A DNA stretch of 64,000 bases from a virus. The stretch spans positions 1-64,000 of the IMG/VR virus record IMGVR_UViG_3300018080_000117; one strand, written 5' to 3'. Positions 20,962-47,179 of the stretch are shown here, piece by piece; the first letter of the stretch is position 1; every line of letters starts with the position of its first letter. The translations under genes and the position numbers were made by a program. The notes under the pieces are model-generated. The model saw only the letters and a list, made by a program, of their open reading frames with translations, was not told the DNA's origin and made no database searches.

Positions 20962-20984
20962 AAAAAACCGCTAAAAAGATTAGC
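20962..20984 (-). terminator. possible weak intrinsic terminator after the capsid gene
   Basis: At the capsid stop, the minus strand can form GCTAA-TCTTT-TTAGC followed by GG and six T residues. The stem is only five base pairs, so termination may be partial, which would fit high capsid expression with some read-through. Confidence 0.42.
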
Positions 20985-22131
20985 TGGTCTTCTGACCCAA
21001 CGCGACACCAGCCGAGTGGCCTAGTCCCAAAAAGCACAGTTCGTAGTAGTACCAACCACGCCGGGGCTTGCCCTCGTTGAACTGGGTCACGGGCTCGGAG
21101 ATCAACTCCTGCCGCACACCGAAGCCGCCCAAGTACTCAGGCTGCGTCACGCCGATCACTTCACCCGGATTCAGCAACTGGAAGCGGTTGTTGGTACCGG
21201 CTGTGGTGATTACCATCGCATTCAAGATGATCCCGACGAATCCGCCCATGATCAACTCGCGCTGCGTCACGGGATCCACCTGCTGGCTGATCGTGGTGAC
21301 GAAGTCAGAAATTTCCTGACGGTGCACGATGAACTTGTCGAGGATCAACCGGTGGCGCTCCACCTGGTAACGAATGCTTTCCAACGCCGAAATGTTGCAG
21401 GTGGCGAAGTAAGTGATGTCGTTTTCGGTGGTGCCTGCGTTCTGCAGCAGGGTCAAACCAGCCAAGTCCTCTTGGTACTCGATCGCCTGGCGGGCACGAT
21501 CCTGGGTACGTTCGAGGATATTGAACTGCGCTCGAGAGATGTCCTTCAGCTCCAACAGCGGGAACGTGGAGACCTCAAACTCAGGCGGGTAAATGTACTT
21601 ACCTTCGACCTGGGATTCCGGGGTCTGGCCGTCTTCGGCAATCTGCCAGCCAACCACGTATGGGTCTTTGTCGTAACGCACAACCTCACCGGGCTTTACG
21701 TCACGCGGGTACCAAACCTTCCGGGTCATGCCCTCGAAGTCGATGACTTCCTTGATCGGATTGAGCAGAGCCTGCCCACACCGGGCAAAGCCTTCACTGG
21801 TGGGGTCGGACATCGCCATCTGCACCAACGCATCCTTATCGGCTGCGTCGACTTTGAGCGAGGCATGCTTGGAGTGCACAGCAACCTGCTGCACGTCGAA
21901 GGTTCCATCGCTGGCACCGTCGAGCAGGCCCTTGATCTTGTCAAGGACTTCAGCGTTGTCACTGGCGTTGATTTCGCCTTTGTTGTCGAACATACGCTCG
22001 TTAGAGCTAACCTTACGATTGCCGCTGCGGCCCTGTCGACCGAAGGACATTGGGTTAAACTCTTCGCCCGCGTTGCTGTCGACGGTGCGCAGTTTGCTGG
22101 CCGCCTTCAAGTAGGGATTCATTTTCGCCAT
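20980..22131 (-). CDS. major capsid protein (HK97-like)
   Basis: The 383-residue product lies after the protease and scaffold genes in the usual head order. An N-terminal ~110-residue region could be a scaffold-like delta domain. The body has signatures of the HK97 fold: VPE-type segment FEGMTRKVWYPRDV, a long spine helix region (QFNILERTQDRARQAIEYQEDLAGLTLLQNAG) and a C-terminal A-domain with LNPGEVIGVTQPEYLGG. Base composition and codon use look richer in G and C than in neighbours, as for a highly expressed gene. The family is judged by position and pattern. Confidence 0.8.
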   Translation of the reverse strand: MAKMNPYLKAASKLRTVDSNAGEEFNPMSFGRQGRSGNRKVSSNERMFDNKGEINASDNAEVLDKIKGLLDGASDGTFDVQQVAVHSKHASLKVDAADKDALVQMAMSDPTSEGFARCGQALLNPIKEVIDFEGMTRKVWYPRDVKPGEVVRYDKDPYVVGWQIAEDGQTPESQVEGKYIYPPEFEVSTFPLLELKDISRAQFNILERTQDRARQAIEYQEDLAGLTLLQNAGTTENDITYFATCNISALESIRYQVERHRLILDKFIVHRQEISDFVTTISQQVDPVTQRELIMGGFVGIILNAMVITTAGTNNRFQLLNPGEVIGVTQPEYLGGFGVRQELISEPVTQFNEGKPRRGWYYYELCFLGLGHSAGVALGQKTS

Positions 22132-22176: not shown

Positions 22177-22875
22177 TTAAACGCTTGCAACCGCAATCTG
22201 GGCGACACCCAGCCACGGATCGGAGACGGTTGGAACGGAGATCACACGACCGCAAACGGGGTAAGAATTGGTTGCAGAAGTCCACTTGCTGTTGGCGTCG
22301 GGGCGCAACGCAGCAGACAGGGTGTAAGTTTGGGTGACGTCGTACTGGTCCGTCCAAATGTGCGCGAAGCCTTCGACGATCGCGCAGCGATTTGAACCGG
22401 TGGTGTCATCGGCACTTTGGGTGTAGTTGGTGCCGCCGCTGTAACCAATCTCATCGGCGGGAATCGTGTACTCGTACCAAATGATCACAGACTCAGAAGC
22501 CGAGATGCTTCCACCGCCCACGCGACCAACAATACCGTTGTTGGTGTTCAACGTGTAATCGGTGCCGTGGGTGTACTCGGTGCCCGAACTATCGGTCACC
22601 TTAATGTAGCTGGTGCCGCGCACATTGGCGTGCTTGAGCTGAATTTGGTCGTTGCTATCGAAGGTGCCGCTTTCGACGGTGGAACGACGGTAGGTCAGCT
22701 CGTGGTCTTTCCAGAAGGTGCCGATGGGCACTGTTCCGGAGGCTGCGGTCGTTACAACGTTTTCTCCACCGGAACGCACCAGAAATGCAACCTGGCCCGC
22801 GCTCCACTGGACGTTGGTATCGACCTTGTAGAACGGACGATTGAAGGGGTAGCCTTTGGTTTTGTTCAGCGCCAT
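22177..22875 (-). CDS. putative head decoration or stabilisation protein
   Basis: This 232-residue protein between scaffold and major capsid genes has the place and size of a decoration protein. Residues 100-150 (YTHGTDYTLNTNNGIVGRV...SVIIWYEYT) form an Ig-like beta unit that resembles the inserted domain in the sheath. Like the capsid gene it looks G+C-richer than the surrounding accessory genes, consistent with high expression. Role inferred from order and fold pattern. Confidence 0.65.
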   Translation of the reverse strand: MALNKTKGYPFNRPFYKVDTNVQWSAGQVAFLVRSGGENVVTTAASGTVPIGTFWKDHELTYRRSTVESGTFDSNDQIQLKHANVRGTSYIKVTDSSGTEYTHGTDYTLNTNNGIVGRVGGGSISASESVIIWYEYTIPADEIGYSGGTNYTQSADDTTGSNRCAIVEGFAHIWTDQYDVTQTYTLSAALRPDANSKWTSATNSYPVCGRVISVPTVSDPWLGVAQIAVASV

Positions 22876-22887
22876 TTGATACTCTCC

Positions 22888-24342
22888 TTATTTATTACTC
22901 TGGAACACGTTTAGCTGCGCCAGTTTTGGACGTGGAGCCGCAGCCTGAATACGTGCCCACTCGTCAACTTCTGGTTCAGACTCGCTTGTGGTCGAAAAAG
23001 GCATCGAGGACTGAGCAGCACGTTGCCGCAACTGTCGAGCCTCGTCACTAGTTTGCTTATGCGCCGAAGGCACAGCAACAGACGAGTCGAGGATCATACT
23101 TTCCGCTTCAACGAAAGCCTCGTCGCTCATGTCCATGTACCGCTGGGTATGCTGCAACGCTGTTTCGAAGTGCTCGTCGGCGGCTTGCGCAAAAGCCGAC
23201 TCGATGATAGGGGCGGGGTCATCGATCCCCATTTCGCCCATCAGCTCAAACAAAGCACCCTTCAGCGGGTTGTCGCCCACTAGGTTCTTGTTCATAGCAG
23301 TCAGAGCAAGCTTCAACGCACGGCGGAAGCGACGACCATAGTCCGCCGCGTCGTGCTTACTGGCCACCGAAGCACTTGCCTCGATCGGGATGTTGAGCTT
23401 TTTCGCATCGGATTTGGTCGAAAGCTCTCGACCAAACACAGCCTTCTTAGGCGTAGCAGCCTTTTTGCTAAGCTTGCGAGCCTTGAACTTACGTAGCGCG
23501 GCCTTCAGACCCAACTTGTTCATCGTCTTGATCACGAGATGGGCAAACTTCGGGCTCTTGTACTCATCCGCACTGAACTCGCCTCGAGGGATGGTGCAGA
23601 AAGCACGTTCGTTTGCATCGAGCACCTGCCAGGAACCCTTTTTGTATTCCATGGTCAGGTTAGCCACCGCAAACAGATCCGGGGTCTTGTCATTGACGGG
23701 CTTGCCCATCGTCGGTTTTTGTTCCATGGGCTTGAAGGACTTGTCCTTCATCTTTTTGACCATCCACTGATCACGCAGATACTCTTCACCCTTGGCTTTC
23801 TTCATGGCAGCGCGGCGGGCCATAAGCTTACGCCGCAGCCGGGCTTTGATTTGAGCCCTTGCCAGTTTTGGGTTTCGGGGCGTTTGACGGCGGTTACCGG
23901 AACTCTTCCGCAGGTTGCGTTTGCTACGCAACTCAGAACGGATCTTGCGGTAACGCGCAAGATTAGTTTTGTTCATTCTTGCTTCCTCCTCTAGTCCGAA
24001 CTCATCTTCGGTTACCTCTTCCTCGTCTTCTTCGTCTTTCTCTTCCAGAAACTCTTCAAAGCCGTCAGATCCGGAATCGCTATCTTCGTCTAACAGCAAC
24101 TCTTCGATTACTTCTTTATGTTGCTCCAAACCATCAACAACGATGTCCATCGTCTCTTCGAGCTTTTCGACGCGGTCTTCTACTTCACCTTCGTCCGCTT
24201 CTTCCACCGCTGCTTCCTCGTCAGGGTCGCCTAACGAGTCCATAGGAAAATCGGGAGCGGGCCCCTCTTCGGCAGGAGCCTCTTCTTCCTGCGCCTTTTT
24301 CAAAAAGGCATTCACCTTATCTAATGTCGCTTTTCGTAGCAT
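22888..24342 (-). CDS. scaffold/internal head protein with nested second start
   Basis: ATG 24342 follows GAGG at seven bases. The 484-residue product starts with a helical leader MLRKATLDKVNAFLKKAQ, then a very acidic region to about residue 120, then abruptly a very basic region starting MNKTNLARYRKIRSELRSKR at residue 123. The rest is helical and mixed, ending with AQLNVFQSNK. Position between protease and capsid genes indicates a scaffold or core role. The Met at 123 (base 23976) has a perfect AGGAGG eight bases upstream, so a shorter protein is expected too, as with lambda Nu3 inside C. Function not shown directly. Confidence 0.72.
   Translation of the reverse strand: MLRKATLDKVNAFLKKAQEEEAPAEEGPAPDFPMDSLGDPDEEAAVEEADEGEVEDRVEKLEETMDIVVDGLEQHKEVIEELLLDEDSDSGSDGFEEFLEEKDEEDEEEVTEDEFGLEEEARMNKTNLARYRKIRSELRSKRNLRKSSGNRRQTPRNPKLARAQIKARLRRKLMARRAAMKKAKGEEYLRDQWMVKKMKDKSFKPMEQKPTMGKPVNDKTPDLFAVANLTMEYKKGSWQVLDANERAFCTIPRGEFSADEYKSPKFAHLVIKTMNKLGLKAALRKFKARKLSKKAATPKKAVFGRELSTKSDAKKLNIPIEASASVASKHDAADYGRRFRRALKLALTAMNKNLVGDNPLKGALFELMGEMGIDDPAPIIESAFAQAADEHFETALQHTQRYMDMSDEAFVEAESMILDSSVAVPSAHKQTSDEARQLRQRAAQSSMPFSTTSESEPEVDEWARIQAAAPRPKLAQLNVFQSNK
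23974..23990 (-). promoter_or_regulatory. internal ribosome binding site and start in the scaffold ORF
   Basis: AGGAGG at 23990-23985 is followed after exactly eight bases by an in-frame ATG (23976-23974) at the acidic-to-basic module boundary. In the long frame the same bases encode Glu-Glu-Glu-Ala-Arg. Confidence 0.78.
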
Positions 24343-24351
24343 TAGCACACC

Positions 24352-25236
24352 TCAAAACAGTTTTTGGGCCAGGTTGATCATGCTTTGTGGAAGGCTGTTA
24401 ATGTTAGTTTCAAAGTAGCGCCCAACCTCCACAGCATCGTTACGATCAAGCAATCGGGACACAAGCGGCGGTAGGGAACTGTTGTTTTGTTTTAGAGACG
24501 CTGCCTTGCTTTGCATAAGGTACTGACGAACCGCTTTCGGGTCGGCGGGAATTTCAACGCCGCTTAGCTCAACAAAACATACCTCCAAGCAGTCTTCGCA
24601 AATTACCTCACCGCCCACTACCTGCAGCATTTGATTTTTCAAGTGCGAGCACTTTTCGTTCTCGGTGCGGGCTATCTTTCTACATGCGCTGTGGCTACAC
24701 TGAACGGCACCACACCAGCACCCCATTGAGAACTTATCGTTTCTGCCGCTAACAAGACCTTCGGCATAGGCTGCGTCTTTTGTGGTATCAACCGCAACAA
24801 CACAGGTTACGTACTTATCTTCGGGACCGGTCACATAGGCAGCGTCGGGCAAAAAGCCTCGTGCGGTACGAGGGTCGTCTGCCATGTGCTCAATATGCAG
24901 TGGCACGTTACGGAAGGTCTCATAAACTAAGCAACGGCAATCTGCGTCGTACCTTAGTAACTCTTGCTCGGTGAACCGGTCACCGTTACCATTGGCTTCA
25001 TTGGCTGTCACCGCACGAGCTACAGCGAACACGTAGTCATCAATGTTCGAACTAAGCTCATAATTCTGGGCGATGCTTTTTAGGCCCGGTCCTTCCGACA
25101 CCAGCTCGATCGCCTTTTTTGTGTGGGCAGCAACCCGAGGGTGCATCCGTTGAAATTGAGCGGTGATTCGAAAATTGTTATTTTGACTGGCTTGGAAAAC
25201 TCCAAGTACCGGCAGACTCGCTGTTTTGAAAAACAA
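24352..25236 (-). CDS. prohead protease
   Basis: The 294-residue product starts at TTG 25236 after AGGGG at eight bases. It shows the pattern of phage prohead core proteases: ANGNGDRFTEQELL, the His region VPLHIEHM (His 114 and 117) followed by ARGFLPDAAYV, and the Ser region KFSMGCWCG (Ser 170). A Cys/His cluster after the Ser (CWCG...CSHSAC...CSHL) is typical for a zinc-binding subgroup. The protease is expected to mature scaffold and capsid proteins during head assembly; its target motif is not known. C-terminus: a short basic and helical tail. Confidence 0.82.
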   Translation of the reverse strand: MFFKTASLPVLGVFQASQNNNFRITAQFQRMHPRVAAHTKKAIELVSEGPGLKSIAQNYELSSNIDDYVFAVARAVTANEANGNGDRFTEQELLRYDADCRCLVYETFRNVPLHIEHMADDPRTARGFLPDAAYVTGPEDKYVTCVVAVDTTKDAAYAEGLVSGRNDKFSMGCWCGAVQCSHSACRKIARTENEKCSHLKNQMLQVVGGEVICEDCLEVCFVELSGVEIPADPKAVRQYLMQSKAASLKQNNSSLPPLVSRLLDRNDAVEVGRYFETNINSLPQSMINLAQKLF

Positions 25237-26774: not shown

Positions 26775-27242
26775 TTAACTTCTAGAGATGGCCTTCATAA
26801 GCCACATTGCGGATTCTTCGAGCTTCGTAATTGCCAAAGCCCGACTTCGGCTGTTTTCAACCTCGTCCTCGATGCAACTTAGCAAATCGCCATAAGCCGC
26901 TCTAAAGCCATCTGCCACCAGATGCTTAGCCTCATTCATCTCCACGTGATCAAACGGTCCTAGCGGCTCTGTGTCCGTCTCAGCGGTATTCTGAAAGTTG
27001 CCCTCGACCACGTTATCGTTTTCGTCGCTCATCTCTTCTTCCTCCTCTATTGGGACGACCACGTGAAAGTCGTGATCACCGCAATCACAAGGTTCTAAAA
27101 ACCCAGCTTGGCAATCGTCTTTTATCGAACCGCAAGGGGCCAAGTCTTGAGTCTCACAGGCACACCCGTCTTCTTCGTTGTACAACCCTCCATACCCGTA
27201 CTCGTCGAGGCACTCTTTGACGAAGTCTTTTACGGTAGGCAT
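26775..27242 (-). CDS. fusion of a Cys-rich small protein and an Acb2/Tad1-hairpin-like domain
   Basis: The 155-residue frame has two modules. Residues 1-70 are a Cys-rich protein (YGYGGLYNEEDGCACETQDL, then CGSIKDDC and CDCGDHDF), a type often found alone in phages. After a run of five Glu comes MSDEN (residue 71) and a second module ending NSRSRALAITKLEESAMWLMKAI, close to the SRE(x)ALTKLEEA(x)MWA pattern of the Acb2/Tad1 hairpin domain. Acb2 proteins bind cyclic nucleotides and block CBASS and, for relatives, Thoeris signalling. The internal ATG 27032 has AGGAGG eight bases upstream, so the second module is probably also made alone. The anti-defence role is inference from a short motif. 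Confidence 0.68.
   Translation of the reverse strand: MPTVKDFVKECLDEYGYGGLYNEEDGCACETQDLAPCGSIKDDCQAGFLEPCDCGDHDFHVVVPIEEEEEMSDENDNVVEGNFQNTAETDTEPLGPFDHVEMNEAKHLVADGFRAAYGDLLSCIEDEVENSRSRALAITKLEESAMWLMKAISRS
27030..27046 (-). promoter_or_regulatory. internal ribosome binding site and start before the Acb2-like module
   Basis: AGGAGG at 27046-27041, eight bases, then in-frame ATG 27032-27030. In the longer frame the site encodes Glu residues. Confidence 0.76.
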
Positions 27243-43171: not shown

Positions 43172-44032
43172 TTAGATTTCTTTTATGTCTTTGACACCGC
43201 GCTCCATCAAAACGTCTACGATTGCGTTAGACCACGCGGCTTCCCAGGCATCAACAGCTTTCTGAATTCCGCGATCACCGTTCAGCATTTCGTAAATGTG
43301 CTTCTGGTCTTCTGGGGTAATCAAATGATCCCAGTCACCATCCATAAAAGTTATACCATGACCAAGAGCAGTCATCCACAAAAGATAGTTGGCGTCGGGC
43401 AGTTCAGCATTTTCATCGTTCATAAAACCCATTACGTGCTTATCGATAAAAGCGTCTAGCGCAGTATCAGCCTTATCAGAAGCTGCTTGCAATTCAGGGT
43501 TGTTTGCCAAGTCCTCTAGAAAATCAAAATCGTCCATCCAATCTTCGGCGTTGGTGCCATGCAACTGACTTTCGGCTTCTATTCGAGCGTAGTCATACAA
43601 AAACTCAGGGTCGCTGATATCGCCTTCCATCGCTTTCTTTTTTAGTGACGCCTTTCGCATTTCAGCTTCCTCCACAAAACACGGTTGATTGTTTTCAATT
43701 CCTAACGATTCACACGTACCGCCCACCAATTCCAACACCAAGTCAGCGTAGCATGACCAGCGTTCCTTAGTTCCTGGCTGCGCGTTGTGGACAACCTTAG
43801 CAACCCGATACTCATTTTGTTCTTTCCTAAGAAAGACAATGTCAATCGGAAAACTAACGCTACCCATGTGAAACGTTGTTTGGTGCGGGGTGTTGAAAAC
43901 AAAAAGTAAGCCTTCGTTAGAAGGCAAAGAGGCAACACCCTGCAAGCCCGTTGTCAGTTCTTGCTGTGTTTGCGCCAACGCAACGTTGAACGTTGCTGAC
44001 CCAAAACTTACTTTTGTTTGCAGGGTGGCCAT
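43172..44032 (-). CDS. DUF192 protein fused to a second module with its own start
   Basis: Residues 1-110 match DUF192: TTGLQGVASLPSNEGLLFVF, the HMGSVSFPIDIVFLRK strand pair and a VLELVGG end. After EEAE the frame continues with MRKASLKKKAMEGD (residue 125) and an acidic helical domain of about 160 residues. The internal ATG 43660 has GGAGG eight bases upstream, the best spacing, so the second module is likely also made alone. DUF192 proteins elsewhere are usually single-domain. The role of either module is unknown. Confidence 0.78.
   Translation of the reverse strand: MATLQTKVSFGSATFNVALAQTQQELTTGLQGVASLPSNEGLLFVFNTPHQTTFHMGSVSFPIDIVFLRKEQNEYRVAKVVHNAQPGTKERWSCYADLVLELVGGTCESLGIENNQPCFVEEAEMRKASLKKKAMEGDISDPEFLYDYARIEAESQLHGTNAEDWMDDFDFLEDLANNPELQAASDKADTALDAFIDKHVMGFMNDENAELPDANYLLWMTALGHGITFMDGDWDHLITPEDQKHIYEMLNGDRGIQKAVDAWEAAWSNAIVDVLMERGVKDIKEI
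43658..43673 (-). promoter_or_regulatory. internal ribosome binding site and start in the DUF192 fusion
   Basis: GGAGG (43673-43669), eight bases, in-frame ATG (43660-43658). In the long frame these bases read Glu-Glu-Ala-Glu before the Met. Confidence 0.76.
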
Positions 44033-44041
44033 TGTCTATTC

Positions 44042-47000
44042 CTAAATTTTTTCCCAGAAGTCGTAAGCCTGCTCCGGGGTGATATCCCCGTTGCTGACCG
44101 CGTAGCCAATCGTCATTCCACGCTTCCATATCGTTGCTGCGTCTTGCGCGTCGAGCCCCCAGTCTTCTAAAGCCTTTGCTGCGGAAGGCTCAAACACACC
44201 TACACGCATCCACTCTTCGGCGTCTTCTACATCAGGATATTCGTCCATCCAATCTTGAGCAGTTTGTTCAATATCGTTACCATGAAATCTTTTACCCATG
44301 GACTGCAGAAGATTCACAAATTCGTCAAGTTCATCATCTTCATCATCGTCCATGGGATCACGGACAAACTCTTCAAAATCGTCGGCAACCTCGTCCCAGT
44401 CAACTTCGTCGAGATCAATATCAACACCCTCAATTCCGCCCATTGCGTGAACGTAATCATCGATCGCATCTGCAAGCTTTCTCAGCGACTCTGCTTCTTT
44501 AGCCAAAGAAACAACGTCGTGGTACATACCTTGATCATTCAACAGCCAACGAGACACCTCATCGGTGTCCCAACCCGCACGACGACGAATCTCGCTGCTG
44601 CGTTTTCGAACTGGTATTTTTCGGCCAACGCGGCGGGAAGGCTTACGGGTGCGAGAAGACAACTTGTTTGTTCGGCGTCTGATCATTTTTTTAGCCTTTC
44701 TTTTTTTTGAGCTTTCTTTTTCTTCGGGGGGAGGCCAACCACCGTAAAGTTCTTTCCACGAATCTAACTCTTCTTGAATATGTTCCTTGCCCCGCTTGCT
44801 AGCAAGCATCGCATCTACAAACTCGCGTGCTGTCATCGTATAAGAACGTCCGTCTACATTTTCCGTTAATACGTCATACGCTTCATCGCCCCACTCTTCC
44901 TCCAACTCCTTGACGTAATCCTTATCTTCCATCAATAAATTTGTTGTGATTTCGTAAGCACCTTCAAGAGCATCTTGGTCAGAGCCGGTCCAATCTGCCA
45001 CTAGTGCCCCGGCGTAACTAAGATAGCCTTCTTGACTCCACGTAATCCCAACAAAAACAGGGTCTGAAGGGTCTTCAGGCAATCCGATCTCGGACTCCTT
45101 CAACATCACAGCCCCCAACACCCGCTCAAAATCTTCTTTAGCTCCCGCTTTCCGTCTAATCATTTTGTCTCCCTTAAACTTTGCAAGCTTTCGCTTAGCT
45201 GCTGTAGCGGGGAGCTTCTTGATTGTCTCAGCCAAAAGCTCACCCTGGTACAACAAGTTTTGAATTTCCTTACTTGCAGCTTGAGTCACGTCAACACGTT
45301 CGAGCATGTTCAAAAAGTCTTGAGCCACTTTCTGGGCCTGTCCTACGTCAACTTGCGCTTTTCGTTGATGTGCCAAAGCCAGGCGAATCTTTGTTTTCAC
45401 CTTAGCGACACGGCGAGAGGCTAATTTGTTAGATCGTCTGCGTTGCAACACACTCTTCATTTTCTTTGTCTTCTTTCTTTTGTCACAAGACTTCGCCAAC
45501 CGCCGGCGCTTAGCCCGCAACCTCGCCAACTCCAACGCGGGACCACCCATGTCCTCAAACTCAACAAATTCGCGATACTGCTCTGTGGGCCGCTCTTCCA
45601 TATTGGTGTCTTCCTTGCCGTGCCAGAGGTCGTCCCAAATTGACTTTACCTCTGCCCATGTGTCGCTCTCTTTGACACGTTGGAGCCACTGTTTGATATT
45701 GGGCAACGACGGAACCCAATCGCGAATGGCTTCAGCCAATTCCTTCTTCTCGGTCTCTAATGCTTGGGCAAAAGCTAACTTACGCGCAGCCTCTTTTGCG
45801 TCGTTCTTTTTCTCAAACACTTCTGTGGACGCAACGGTAACCGACTTGTCGAGAACGTTTGCCTTGTAGCCACCTTCGACCTTATAGATCTTGGCCTGGT
45901 AACTTTTGGGTTCGCGCATCATCGTATTTTCCTTATCTTGGTTAGCAGGTCTTGAACGCACAGACAGATTCGGATTGCGCAAACTAGCAGCGGTTTCATC
46001 GCTGTCCTCTTCGCTAGTGTTTTCATTTTCCTCGGTGTCGGAATCATTTTCGTCATCCTCCCACCAAGAGTCTTGTGCAGCGGTAATTTCGTCTTCGTGT
46101 TCTTCCTCAACCCTTTTAGCAGCTATGCTTTCTAAGTCGTACACAACAATCCCATCTTCTGTCAGCACAATAGGATGATTATAAGTTTCCGCAAACCAAT
46201 AGGACAACTCCGGGTTATCGTGCGCCTCTGCATGATTAACAATGTCCGAAGGGTTAAATTCCGCAGCTAACAACTCAAACGCCTCGGAAAGTTCGTCAGG
46301 GCTTGGATCGTCTACAGCATAACCTAACTCATTAAGGGAGTGTTCTACATATTCAGTAGTCACTCCTCCTTTGAGGTAGTCTTTCTCAATAGTTTTCGCA
46401 AGCTCGTTTTGGGCAGCTTCCGTACGCATATCGATCGGGTCTACAATAGGAGTGAACACCCAAACTGACCCGTCATCACCTGCGTACTGCTCTGCTACAG
46501 CCCAATCAACAGTACCGTAAATGTGCATACCAGTTTCTAAATCTTGCCTACTCGCCCTACCGTGGACGTACCAGCCCTCAGGAAGCTCATCCCAAATTTT
46601 TAGGTTTTTCACCTGCTCTAGAACAGGATGATCTGCACTAGACTTTTTAGGCATTTCGTTTTTGACGTTTGGGTTTTTCACCTTACGCTTTACTTCCTTC
46701 TGGTATTCGGAAGTCTCATTGCGAGAAGGCATCTTTTGTTTTGGAAGTGCCTGCAAAGCCGTTTTGCTTTCACCCAAAGGCAACCCGTGTAGCAAGATCC
46801 AATTGTTGATTTGCGCGGCAATAGAGGCGGACTTACTTTTCAGCAAGTCGTCATAGAAGCTTTCGTCAAGACTACCGTGCTCGTTGACGTAGCTTACCAA
46901 CTCCAAGATCGCTTCGTCTGTTTCTGTCTGCGAGCTGTTCAAATTGTCTTGAACTCTGATCTCAGCCGACGCAAGACCCATCGTAAAAGCGTCTTGTTCT

Positions 47001-47179
47001 GTCTCCCCCAACTTAGTAAGAATGGTTTCGTACCACTCTGAATCAAGACGCTTGTCAACACTCTTTGCCAAAGCTAACGTAAGAGCATCGTCTATCGTCA
47101 TATCCAAGACAGAATCTAAGTCACTAGGCGTGGCAACAGAAATCGAATCGCCGAAAACGTCTTGCGCCGAGATTTTCAT
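44042..47179 (-). CDS. 1045-residue multi-module protein with several internal starts
   Basis: The frame is open from ATG 47179 to 44042. Modules: 1-150 helical; about 195-380 with a GWYVHGRASRQDLETGMHIYG, DWAVAEQYAG pattern resembling ADP-ribosyltransferase-like folds; an acidic linker; then units starting at Met 420, 527, 574, 673 and 832. Several of these are preceded by good Shine-Dalgarno sequences and start with basic leaders (MKSVLQRRRSNKLASRR, MIRRKAGAKEDF, MIRRRTNKLSSR). The last module is acidic and helical. It may be a polyprotein, a stack of genes without stops, or both. The ADP-ribosylation idea is tentative; no catalytic Glu could be fixed. Confidence 0.6.
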   Translation of the reverse strand: MKISAQDVFGDSISVATPSDLDSVLDMTIDDALTLALAKSVDKRLDSEWYETILTKLGETEQDAFTMGLASAEIRVQDNLNSSQTETDEAILELVSYVNEHGSLDESFYDDLLKSKSASIAAQINNWILLHGLPLGESKTALQALPKQKMPSRNETSEYQKEVKRKVKNPNVKNEMPKKSSADHPVLEQVKNLKIWDELPEGWYVHGRASRQDLETGMHIYGTVDWAVAEQYAGDDGSVWVFTPIVDPIDMRTEAAQNELAKTIEKDYLKGGVTTEYVEHSLNELGYAVDDPSPDELSEAFELLAAEFNPSDIVNHAEAHDNPELSYWFAETYNHPIVLTEDGIVVYDLESIAAKRVEEEHEDEITAAQDSWWEDDENDSDTEENENTSEEDSDETAASLRNPNLSVRSRPANQDKENTMMREPKSYQAKIYKVEGGYKANVLDKSVTVASTEVFEKKNDAKEAARKLAFAQALETEKKELAEAIRDWVPSLPNIKQWLQRVKESDTWAEVKSIWDDLWHGKEDTNMEERPTEQYREFVEFEDMGGPALELARLRAKRRRLAKSCDKRKKTKKMKSVLQRRRSNKLASRRVAKVKTKIRLALAHQRKAQVDVGQAQKVAQDFLNMLERVDVTQAASKEIQNLLYQGELLAETIKKLPATAAKRKLAKFKGDKMIRRKAGAKEDFERVLGAVMLKESEIGLPEDPSDPVFVGITWSQEGYLSYAGALVADWTGSDQDALEGAYEITTNLLMEDKDYVKELEEEWGDEAYDVLTENVDGRSYTMTAREFVDAMLASKRGKEHIQEELDSWKELYGGWPPPEEKESSKKRKAKKMIRRRTNKLSSRTRKPSRRVGRKIPVRKRSSEIRRRAGWDTDEVSRWLLNDQGMYHDVVSLAKEAESLRKLADAIDDYVHAMGGIEGVDIDLDEVDWDEVADDFEEFVRDPMDDDEDDELDEFVNLLQSMGKRFHGNDIEQTAQDWMDEYPDVEDAEEWMRVGVFEPSAAKALEDWGLDAQDAATIWKRGMTIGYAVSNGDITPEQAYDFWEKI
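44684..44703 (-). promoter_or_regulatory. internal start, residue 832 (MIRRRTNK)
   Basis: AAAGG with about eight bases to the in-frame ATG at 44686. The product would start with a basic leader ending in EIRRRAGW. Confidence 0.6.
45161..45178 (-). promoter_or_regulatory. internal start, residue 673 (MIRRKAGAKED)
   Basis: AAGGGAG followed by ACAAA and in-frame ATG 45163; the strongest internal site in this ORF. Confidence 0.68.
45458..45475 (-). promoter_or_regulatory. weak internal start, residue 574 (MKSVLQRRR)
   Basis: ATG 45460 follows GAAGACAAAGAAA, a purine-rich but poor Shine-Dalgarno match. Confidence 0.38.
45599..45618 (-). promoter_or_regulatory. internal start, residue 527 (MEERPTEQ)
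   Basis: AAGGA with about ten bases to the in-frame ATG 45601. Confidence 0.52.
45917..45936 (-). promoter_or_regulatory. internal start, residue 420 (MMREPKSY)
   Basis: AAGGA with about seven bases to the in-frame ATG pair at 45922 and 45919, directly after the acidic linker. Confidence 0.6.

Follow-up and report, generated by a model that had tools for sequence, protein, structure and literature searches.

In phage lambda, the scaffold gene Nu3 shares its reading frame with gene C, within which it is nested. The prohead core genes 67, 68, 21 and 22 of phage T4 are separate acidic, basic, protease and core genes lying beside the capsid gene. For lambda C/Nu3, nested in-frame products are described in the excerpted text of PMC8508860, while the excerpts of PMC3224144 (on Nu3), PMC10695390 and PMC3185693 make no mention of nesting. 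Two-start genes are also found among endolysins, namely CTP1L, Lys170 and LysP7951, which have in-frame overlapping ORFs with a common stop and a ribosome binding site (RBS) for each; their long and short forms have been demonstrated experimentally, with complexes in several cases (PMC9430671, excerpt). No paper on internal starts in the scaffold lineage described here was found in the open-licence literature, as judged by titles and the first lines of abstracts.

The window, meaning the whole stretch of 64,000 nucleotides that was analysed, belongs to a 136,432-base record from an uncultured virus and carries a head-gene cluster on its minus strand (Table 1). No match to named phages was obtained with the window DNA, and a search of named phages with the putative scaffold protein returned three Erwinia records only; capsid synteny was used in place of DNA or scaffold matching for comparison with these phages. 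The annotated order protease, 'ATPase' or hypothetical protein, structural protein, capsid protein is seen in Erwinia, Alcaligenes, Lu11 and BcepSauron phages, with additional genes between the protease and the 'ATPase'-position gene in the Erwinia and Lu11 phages. Phages PhiXhv-12, NCTB, PaBG and RHEph12 have a large ORF, then an ORF of ~230 aa and then the capsid gene, with no protease label within the stretch examined. Genes in the decoration position are labelled virion structural protein in annotated phages.

The window gene lies where PHROG 20988 members lie, between the head protease and the structural and capsid genes. Its protein matches this family ('ATPase', E=1e-7) over residues 259-431, the match covering the C-terminal part of the 652-position profile only, and it matches the 'ATPase' of Erwinia phage pEa_SNUABM_35 with an E-value of 6e-3. 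Pfam gave no assignment for the protein, and a PDB fold search with its low-confidence structure model (mean pLDDT 64.6, pTM 0.25) gave nothing below E 1.9. From synteny, composition and the one PHROG match, we infer that the gene encodes a scaffold protein. The 'ATPase' label is probably a misnomer at this position. It is also carried by acidic scaffold-position genes in the protease-to-capsid interval of other loci (L008:5459-7489, and similarly in L067, L070 and L072). The 'ATPase' genes of the Erwinia, Alcaligenes, Lu11 and PaBG jumbo phages, whose membership of PHROG 20988 is by annotation, have a similar position and a common C-terminal region but possess no internal ATG with a Shine-Dalgarno sequence (SD) at -7 kcal/mol or better.

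Table 1. Features of the putative scaffold gene and its neighbours in the window
Feature	Position	Strand	Remarks
Head maturation protease, separate upstream gene	24352..25236	-	PHROG 18299, E=7e-25
Likely primary-start SD GAGGTG	24348..24353	-	5 nt ahead of ATG 24342; -9.4 kcal/mol
Full-length putative scaffold ORF	22888..24342	-	484 aa, ATG 24342 to TAA, PHROG 20988 match
Acidic N-terminal module	23977..24342	-	122 aa, pI 4.05; separate 141-aa gene in L046/L047
Internal SD AGGAGG	23985..23990	-	-12.0 kcal/mol; counterpart codons synonymously constrained in subclade
Internal ATG start codon (predicted)	23974..23976	-	Boundary ATG kept in 21/22 distinct one-ORF genes
Predicted short product (basic segment + scaffold core)	22888..23976	-	362 aa, pI 10.2, ~41 kDa
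Structural (decoration-position) protein	22177..22875	-	Weak matches: Ig-like/major-tail, unknown families
Major capsid protein	20980..22131	-	PHROG 2522, E=7.5e-50

A preliminary description of this DNA had pointed out an AGGAGG followed after eight bases by an in-frame ATG, at a switch from a very acidic to a very basic region with no stop between the two. The site is present on the minus strand exactly as described, with its spacer at 23984-23977, and the reading frame bears out the lack of a stop codon between the acidic module and the short product. The residues ahead of the internal ATG comprise 50 acidic and 10 basic ones (net -40) and the first 64 residues past it have a net charge of +23. 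A conserved E-F-G motif lies at 24003-23995 and the acidic module ends shortly downstream of it. As regards the upstream start, the GTG at 24348 chosen by the ORF finder falls within GAGGTG (24353-24348), which is itself the likely SD of ATG 24342; this ATG is the best-supported early start, a choice that the N-termini of relatives do not settle.

The boundary ATG ranks first of the 18 internal ATGs scored in the gene, the next best reaching -6.7 kcal/mol, and its SD is stronger than the one before the primary ATG and than the SDs of the decoration-position gene (-9.8) and capsid gene (-9.3). Little RNA structure surrounds the site in the window (96th percentile of openness), with no consistent trend over the 23 rows compared (0.31-0.96). 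The locus has what in-frame nested genes have, these being an internal start with its own RBS, the same frame and a common stop. We consider it highly probable, judging from sequence, that this is a two-start scaffold gene from which proteins of 484 and 362 aa are predicted.

Like lambda C/Nu3, the gene has one ORF with an internal in-frame start and a predicted shorter scaffold product with the same C-terminus, to which position, composition and the PHROG match conform, though no fold match does. Unlike lambda, the long product does not carry the head protease, which is encoded separately, and the internal start splits off an acidic module. The window gene is therefore best regarded as a variant of the lambda type and not a member of it, because its internal start would cut off an acidic domain instead of a protease; the likeness is one of architecture. 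The endolysin pairs differ in that they are lysis enzymes whose products have been demonstrated experimentally, whereas the scaffold pair of the window is predicted from sequence.

A simple alternative is that Glu-rich coding happens to spell AGGAGG with a Met following, and that full-length protein only is made. The SD of the window is indeed spelled by three Glu codons, and synonymous redraws gave an equally strong SD in 30% of cases with the codon usage of the gene or 25% with that of the record, because Glu-Glu-Glu readily spells GAGGAGGA. Over the record as a whole, scanned as the window and four further stretches taken apart (ORFs across the seams being lost), 9 of 520 internal ATGs reached -9 kcal/mol or better against 11.3 expected under a synonymous null for 169 ORFs, and three reached -11.9 or better against 1.8 expected. 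With redraws matching the site in 25-30% of cases and no record-wide excess, both the site taken alone and a genome-wide habit are statistically unremarkable. Per-gene synonymous P values, which ranged from 0.03 to 0.56 across relatives, were set aside as proof, being too weak where Glu and Lys codons easily spell an SD, and were replaced by a rank test and a codon-identity test.

The same figures bear on the proposal, made at the outset, that one-frame stacking of genes, with internal starts and without intervening stops, is routine in this phage. Internal SD-ATG pairs are no commoner in the record than synonymous codon choice predicts, and such a genome-wide strategy is quite unlikely. The recurrence on which it was based stood in part: the site at 27032 is real (-12.0) and that at 43660 is real but weaker (-9.3), whereas the stretch 44042-47179 has no strong site, the best of its 25 scored internal ATGs reaching only -8.4. 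Both real sites have a GGAGG and fall at plausible module joins, which speaks for the strategy, but their second modules were found in no relative beyond the window's twin contig; they are leads, not results.

The first of these leads is a 155-aa ORF (26775-27242, minus strand) whose C-terminal half matches the Acb2/Tad1 hairpin domain (PF24729, 3.7e-9), a family which we take to be an anti-CBASS/Thoeris sponge. GAGGAGG precedes the in-frame ATG 27032 ahead of this half, and a protein begun there would have 85 aa, close to the 81 positions of the PHROG 1454 profile. Both a fusion and a free-standing sponge may be made from this ORF. Relatives of the gene were found in the window's twin contig only, with none in phages, and its N-terminal module gave one weak match. 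In the second (43172-44032, minus strand), a DUF192 domain is followed by a module beginning at ATG 43660, with TGGAGG and an 8-nt spacer ahead of it. The protein ends shortly after DUF192 in seven of the 11 relatives examined, and the following module was found only in the window's twin (one of 15 records). It should also be mentioned that the best internal SD-ATG of the record, found in L011:15859-16644 (AAGGGAGGT, ATG 16030), is the 58th codon of its ORF; this ATG may be the true gene start.

Relatives of the scaffold locus were collected by capsid-protein search, which gave 28 loci, 26 of them holding the region (L031 and L045 are without the upstream part); a scan of genome contigs with the capsid alignment gave 358 pattern hits and no relative. 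Among the 26 loci, 24 have one ORF between the protease position and the structural gene and two (L046 and L047) have two ORFs. Leaving out L023 (the same as L022) and L037 (98% to L032), there are 22 distinct one-ORF genes, a number that includes the window, one of them being its twin, L021. The boundary ATG is present in 21 of these, always after an EFG-like motif and ahead of a basic segment that in most cases bears LRxxR. No other internal ATG of the gene has so strong an SD in 19 of the 21, where ~1.6 would be expected (sum of 1/n, with 8-21 ATGs per gene), and the boundary SD is at -9.3 or better in 19; with clustering at 50% identity, eight of 10 clusters show it. GGAGG lies 5-8 nt from the ATG in the 19 genes. 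The preliminary description had named loss of the ATG or of its ribosome site in relatives as grounds for giving up the idea, and for the most part neither is lost. The misses are L025, where the site is weak (-7.3, third in the gene), L032 and L037, also weak (-5.8; second in the gene in L032), and L024, where the boundary start is absent.

L024 belongs to the largest cluster, and its DNA (L024:3467-5182) is the same as L042:3392-5182 save for a 75-nt in-frame deletion that removes the SD, the ATG and the basic motif. A scaffold variant without the internal start may accordingly be viable, with an assembly error as an alternative.

The linkers around the boundary SD differ among relatives, and so do the residues that encode it, these being E-E-E in the window, K-E-G in much of the large subclade, N-K-E-E in L022 and I-R-R-K in L048, while an Arg-coded SD is found again in L107 from a wider search (see below). 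In 11 alignable loci of one subclade (L024 being excluded and L022 shifted by one codon), 118 of the 119 codon pairs that encode the same residue at the three SD codons were identical (99%), compared with 8042 of 17633 (46%) gene-wide. The SD codons form the highest three-column window among those with at least 100 pairs; the next highest in these 11 loci, at column 223 in the acidic part, has a codon identity of 88%. These counts mean that nucleotides, and not the protein alone, are under selection at the SD.

As a check, the preliminary description had suggested looking for a relative whose second module is a gene of its own, and one exists, split in the same place. L046 and L047, which have identical DNA and count as one lineage, possess an acidic 141-aa gene ending EQEFGIMSPGYY-stop, followed by 19 bases containing AGGAGGT-CGACT (a 5-nt spacer) and then a GTG in another frame. 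This GTG opens a 305-aa gene (L046:4297-5214) beginning MARNANVLRALRNRR, which resembles the M-x(n)-LRxxR found after the internal Met in most relatives. The T4 prohead core gene set resembles this split form as far as gene arrangement goes.

Set against the redraws and the lack of genome-wide excess, the first rank of the boundary SD in 19 of 21 distinct genes, the SD codons frozen where other codons vary, the Arg codons writing the SD in L048 and L107 and the split genes of L046/L047 make chance a very unlikely explanation. Cleavage by the head protease could also give a short form, with EFG as the cut mark and the SD incidental. The protease gene is adjacent, an EFG-like motif stands just ahead of the boundary in the aligned relatives, and scaffold proteins are cut by phage proteases in HK97 and T4 (PMC3185693, excerpt); yet cleavage leaves unexplained why the SD codons are frozen, why the ATG is conserved at a spacing of 5-8 nt and why L046 has a separate gene with its own SD, and as a substitute for an internal start it is unlikely. 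The EFG motif may serve both, and a protease cut may be an added step at the join. As to a translation pause or frameshift signal between modules, the SD does sit at a module join in the low-confidence model, where the boundary falls between helices 95-110 and 120-149 (residues 110-119 having pLDDT <50). A pause has no need of an ATG at 5-8 nt, yet the ATG is there in 21 of the 22 distinct genes, and no second minus-strand ORF of at least 80 aa in the ORF list overlaps the gene, which makes a signal of this kind most improbable.

Under the two-start reading, ribosomes at ATG 24342 would make a protein with the acidic module and the scaffold core, while those at ATG 23976, with its stronger SD, would make one without the acidic module. 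As both forms would have the basic segment and conserved C-terminal region in common, they could co-assemble in the prohead core, where some of the scaffold subunits, those of the long form, would bear the acidic module. The internal RBS would set the ratio of long to short form, probably favouring the latter: of the 21 distinct genes, 19 have a primary SD weaker than the internal one, so the 362-aa form is expected to equal or exceed the 484-aa form in abundance. The separate upstream head protease would probably cut both during maturation. What the sequences establish is the site, its conservation, the synonymous constraint on the SD in related subclades and the split counterpart; production of the two proteins, their co-assembly and their action as scaffold are inferred.

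The wider search was seeded with the L046 capsid protein, and among the best 80 of 119 relatives a single ORF of ~900 aa often replaces the protease and scaffold genes, as classed by length. In all, 45 of the 80 loci entered this comparison, the remaining 35 being contigs already seen or having less than ~2.5 kb upstream. Forty-four (without L092) were compared further and, with the duplicates L125, L141, L156 and L161 dropped, 40 were left; 24 of these plus L009 entered a test of fused genes and 14 a test of genes whose protease is separate, while the last two, L163 and L164, which nearly duplicate L160 and L162, entered neither. The 25 putative protease-scaffold ORFs were listed by hand as those of at least 780 aa before the decoration-position gene, with the addition of L137 (729 aa) and Rctr197k (L009) and the exclusion of L129 (798 aa), which is preceded by a protease ORF. 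The class is thus set by length, a protease pattern having matched only some members, and contig ends may cut L137, L150 and L153. These ORFs look very like lambda C/Nu3.

The strongest internal SD-ATG lies at most 30 aa before the scaffold core in 15 of the 25 fused ORFs, against 1.65 expected when genes are treated as independent. The other 10 fail, and five of them (L112, L114, L123, L143 and L149) are without any ATG in those 30 residues. In nine genes of this group with the join GGPS-M (or GGSP, GGPP), the Gly codon within the SD is GGA in all nine, where GGA makes up 72 of their 522 Gly codons; of 18 invariant Gly columns it is the sole one with a single codon. The nine are L132, L134-L137, L144 and L157-L159, eight of their ORFs being 850-930 aa long. 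This GGA-fixed SD ahead of the scaffold-core Met appears to be a second nested scaffold start. For the genes with a separate protease, four of 14 pass the core-boundary test, where 1.56 would be expected (naive P 0.055); L153 and L155, both among the four, are near-copies at the site, and the result is not convincing. In L107 and L108 the best site lies farther upstream, ahead of a basic segment. Sixteen genes of named phages were also scanned, and in 10 of them no internal ATG reaches -7. The one internal site of BcepSauron (-8.4) is by eye inside the core and away from the boundary, four actinophages carry sites of -8.9 to -12.0 that may or may not lie at the core boundary, and Rctr197k has a moderate site at the core start (-8.8, third in the gene).

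Taken more broadly, and put forward tentatively, the scaffold core may, over much of a broad group of large uncultured phages, be translated from its own start whatever precedes it, be this protease, acidic module or nothing. Genes would then fuse and split about a conserved internal ribosome site, the proportion of long and short forms that this site sets would be selected in head assembly, and the acidic module would be a dosed, separable assembly factor. This suggests why scaffold-gene architecture appears so variable in such phages. A gene finder reports one protein here where the evidence points to two, from a presumably essential assembly gene in a wide uncultured lineage. In the fused and split forms, nature has in effect tested the need for a covalently joined acidic module, and frozen SD codons amid varying synonymous codons offer an experiment-free test for internal starts that is usable elsewhere.

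Some neighbouring head genes also deserve mention. Directly after the capsid gene, L004:8173-8703, L006:8165-8590 and L007:8126-8914 are ORFs that are very Arg-rich or alternate between acidic and basic stretches, and as a guess these could possibly be DNA-condensing head proteins. Gordonia phage Skog has a 1082-aa protein (L075:2125-5373) annotated as 'LysM-like endolysin' which, by eye and by position, looks like a head protease-scaffold fusion.
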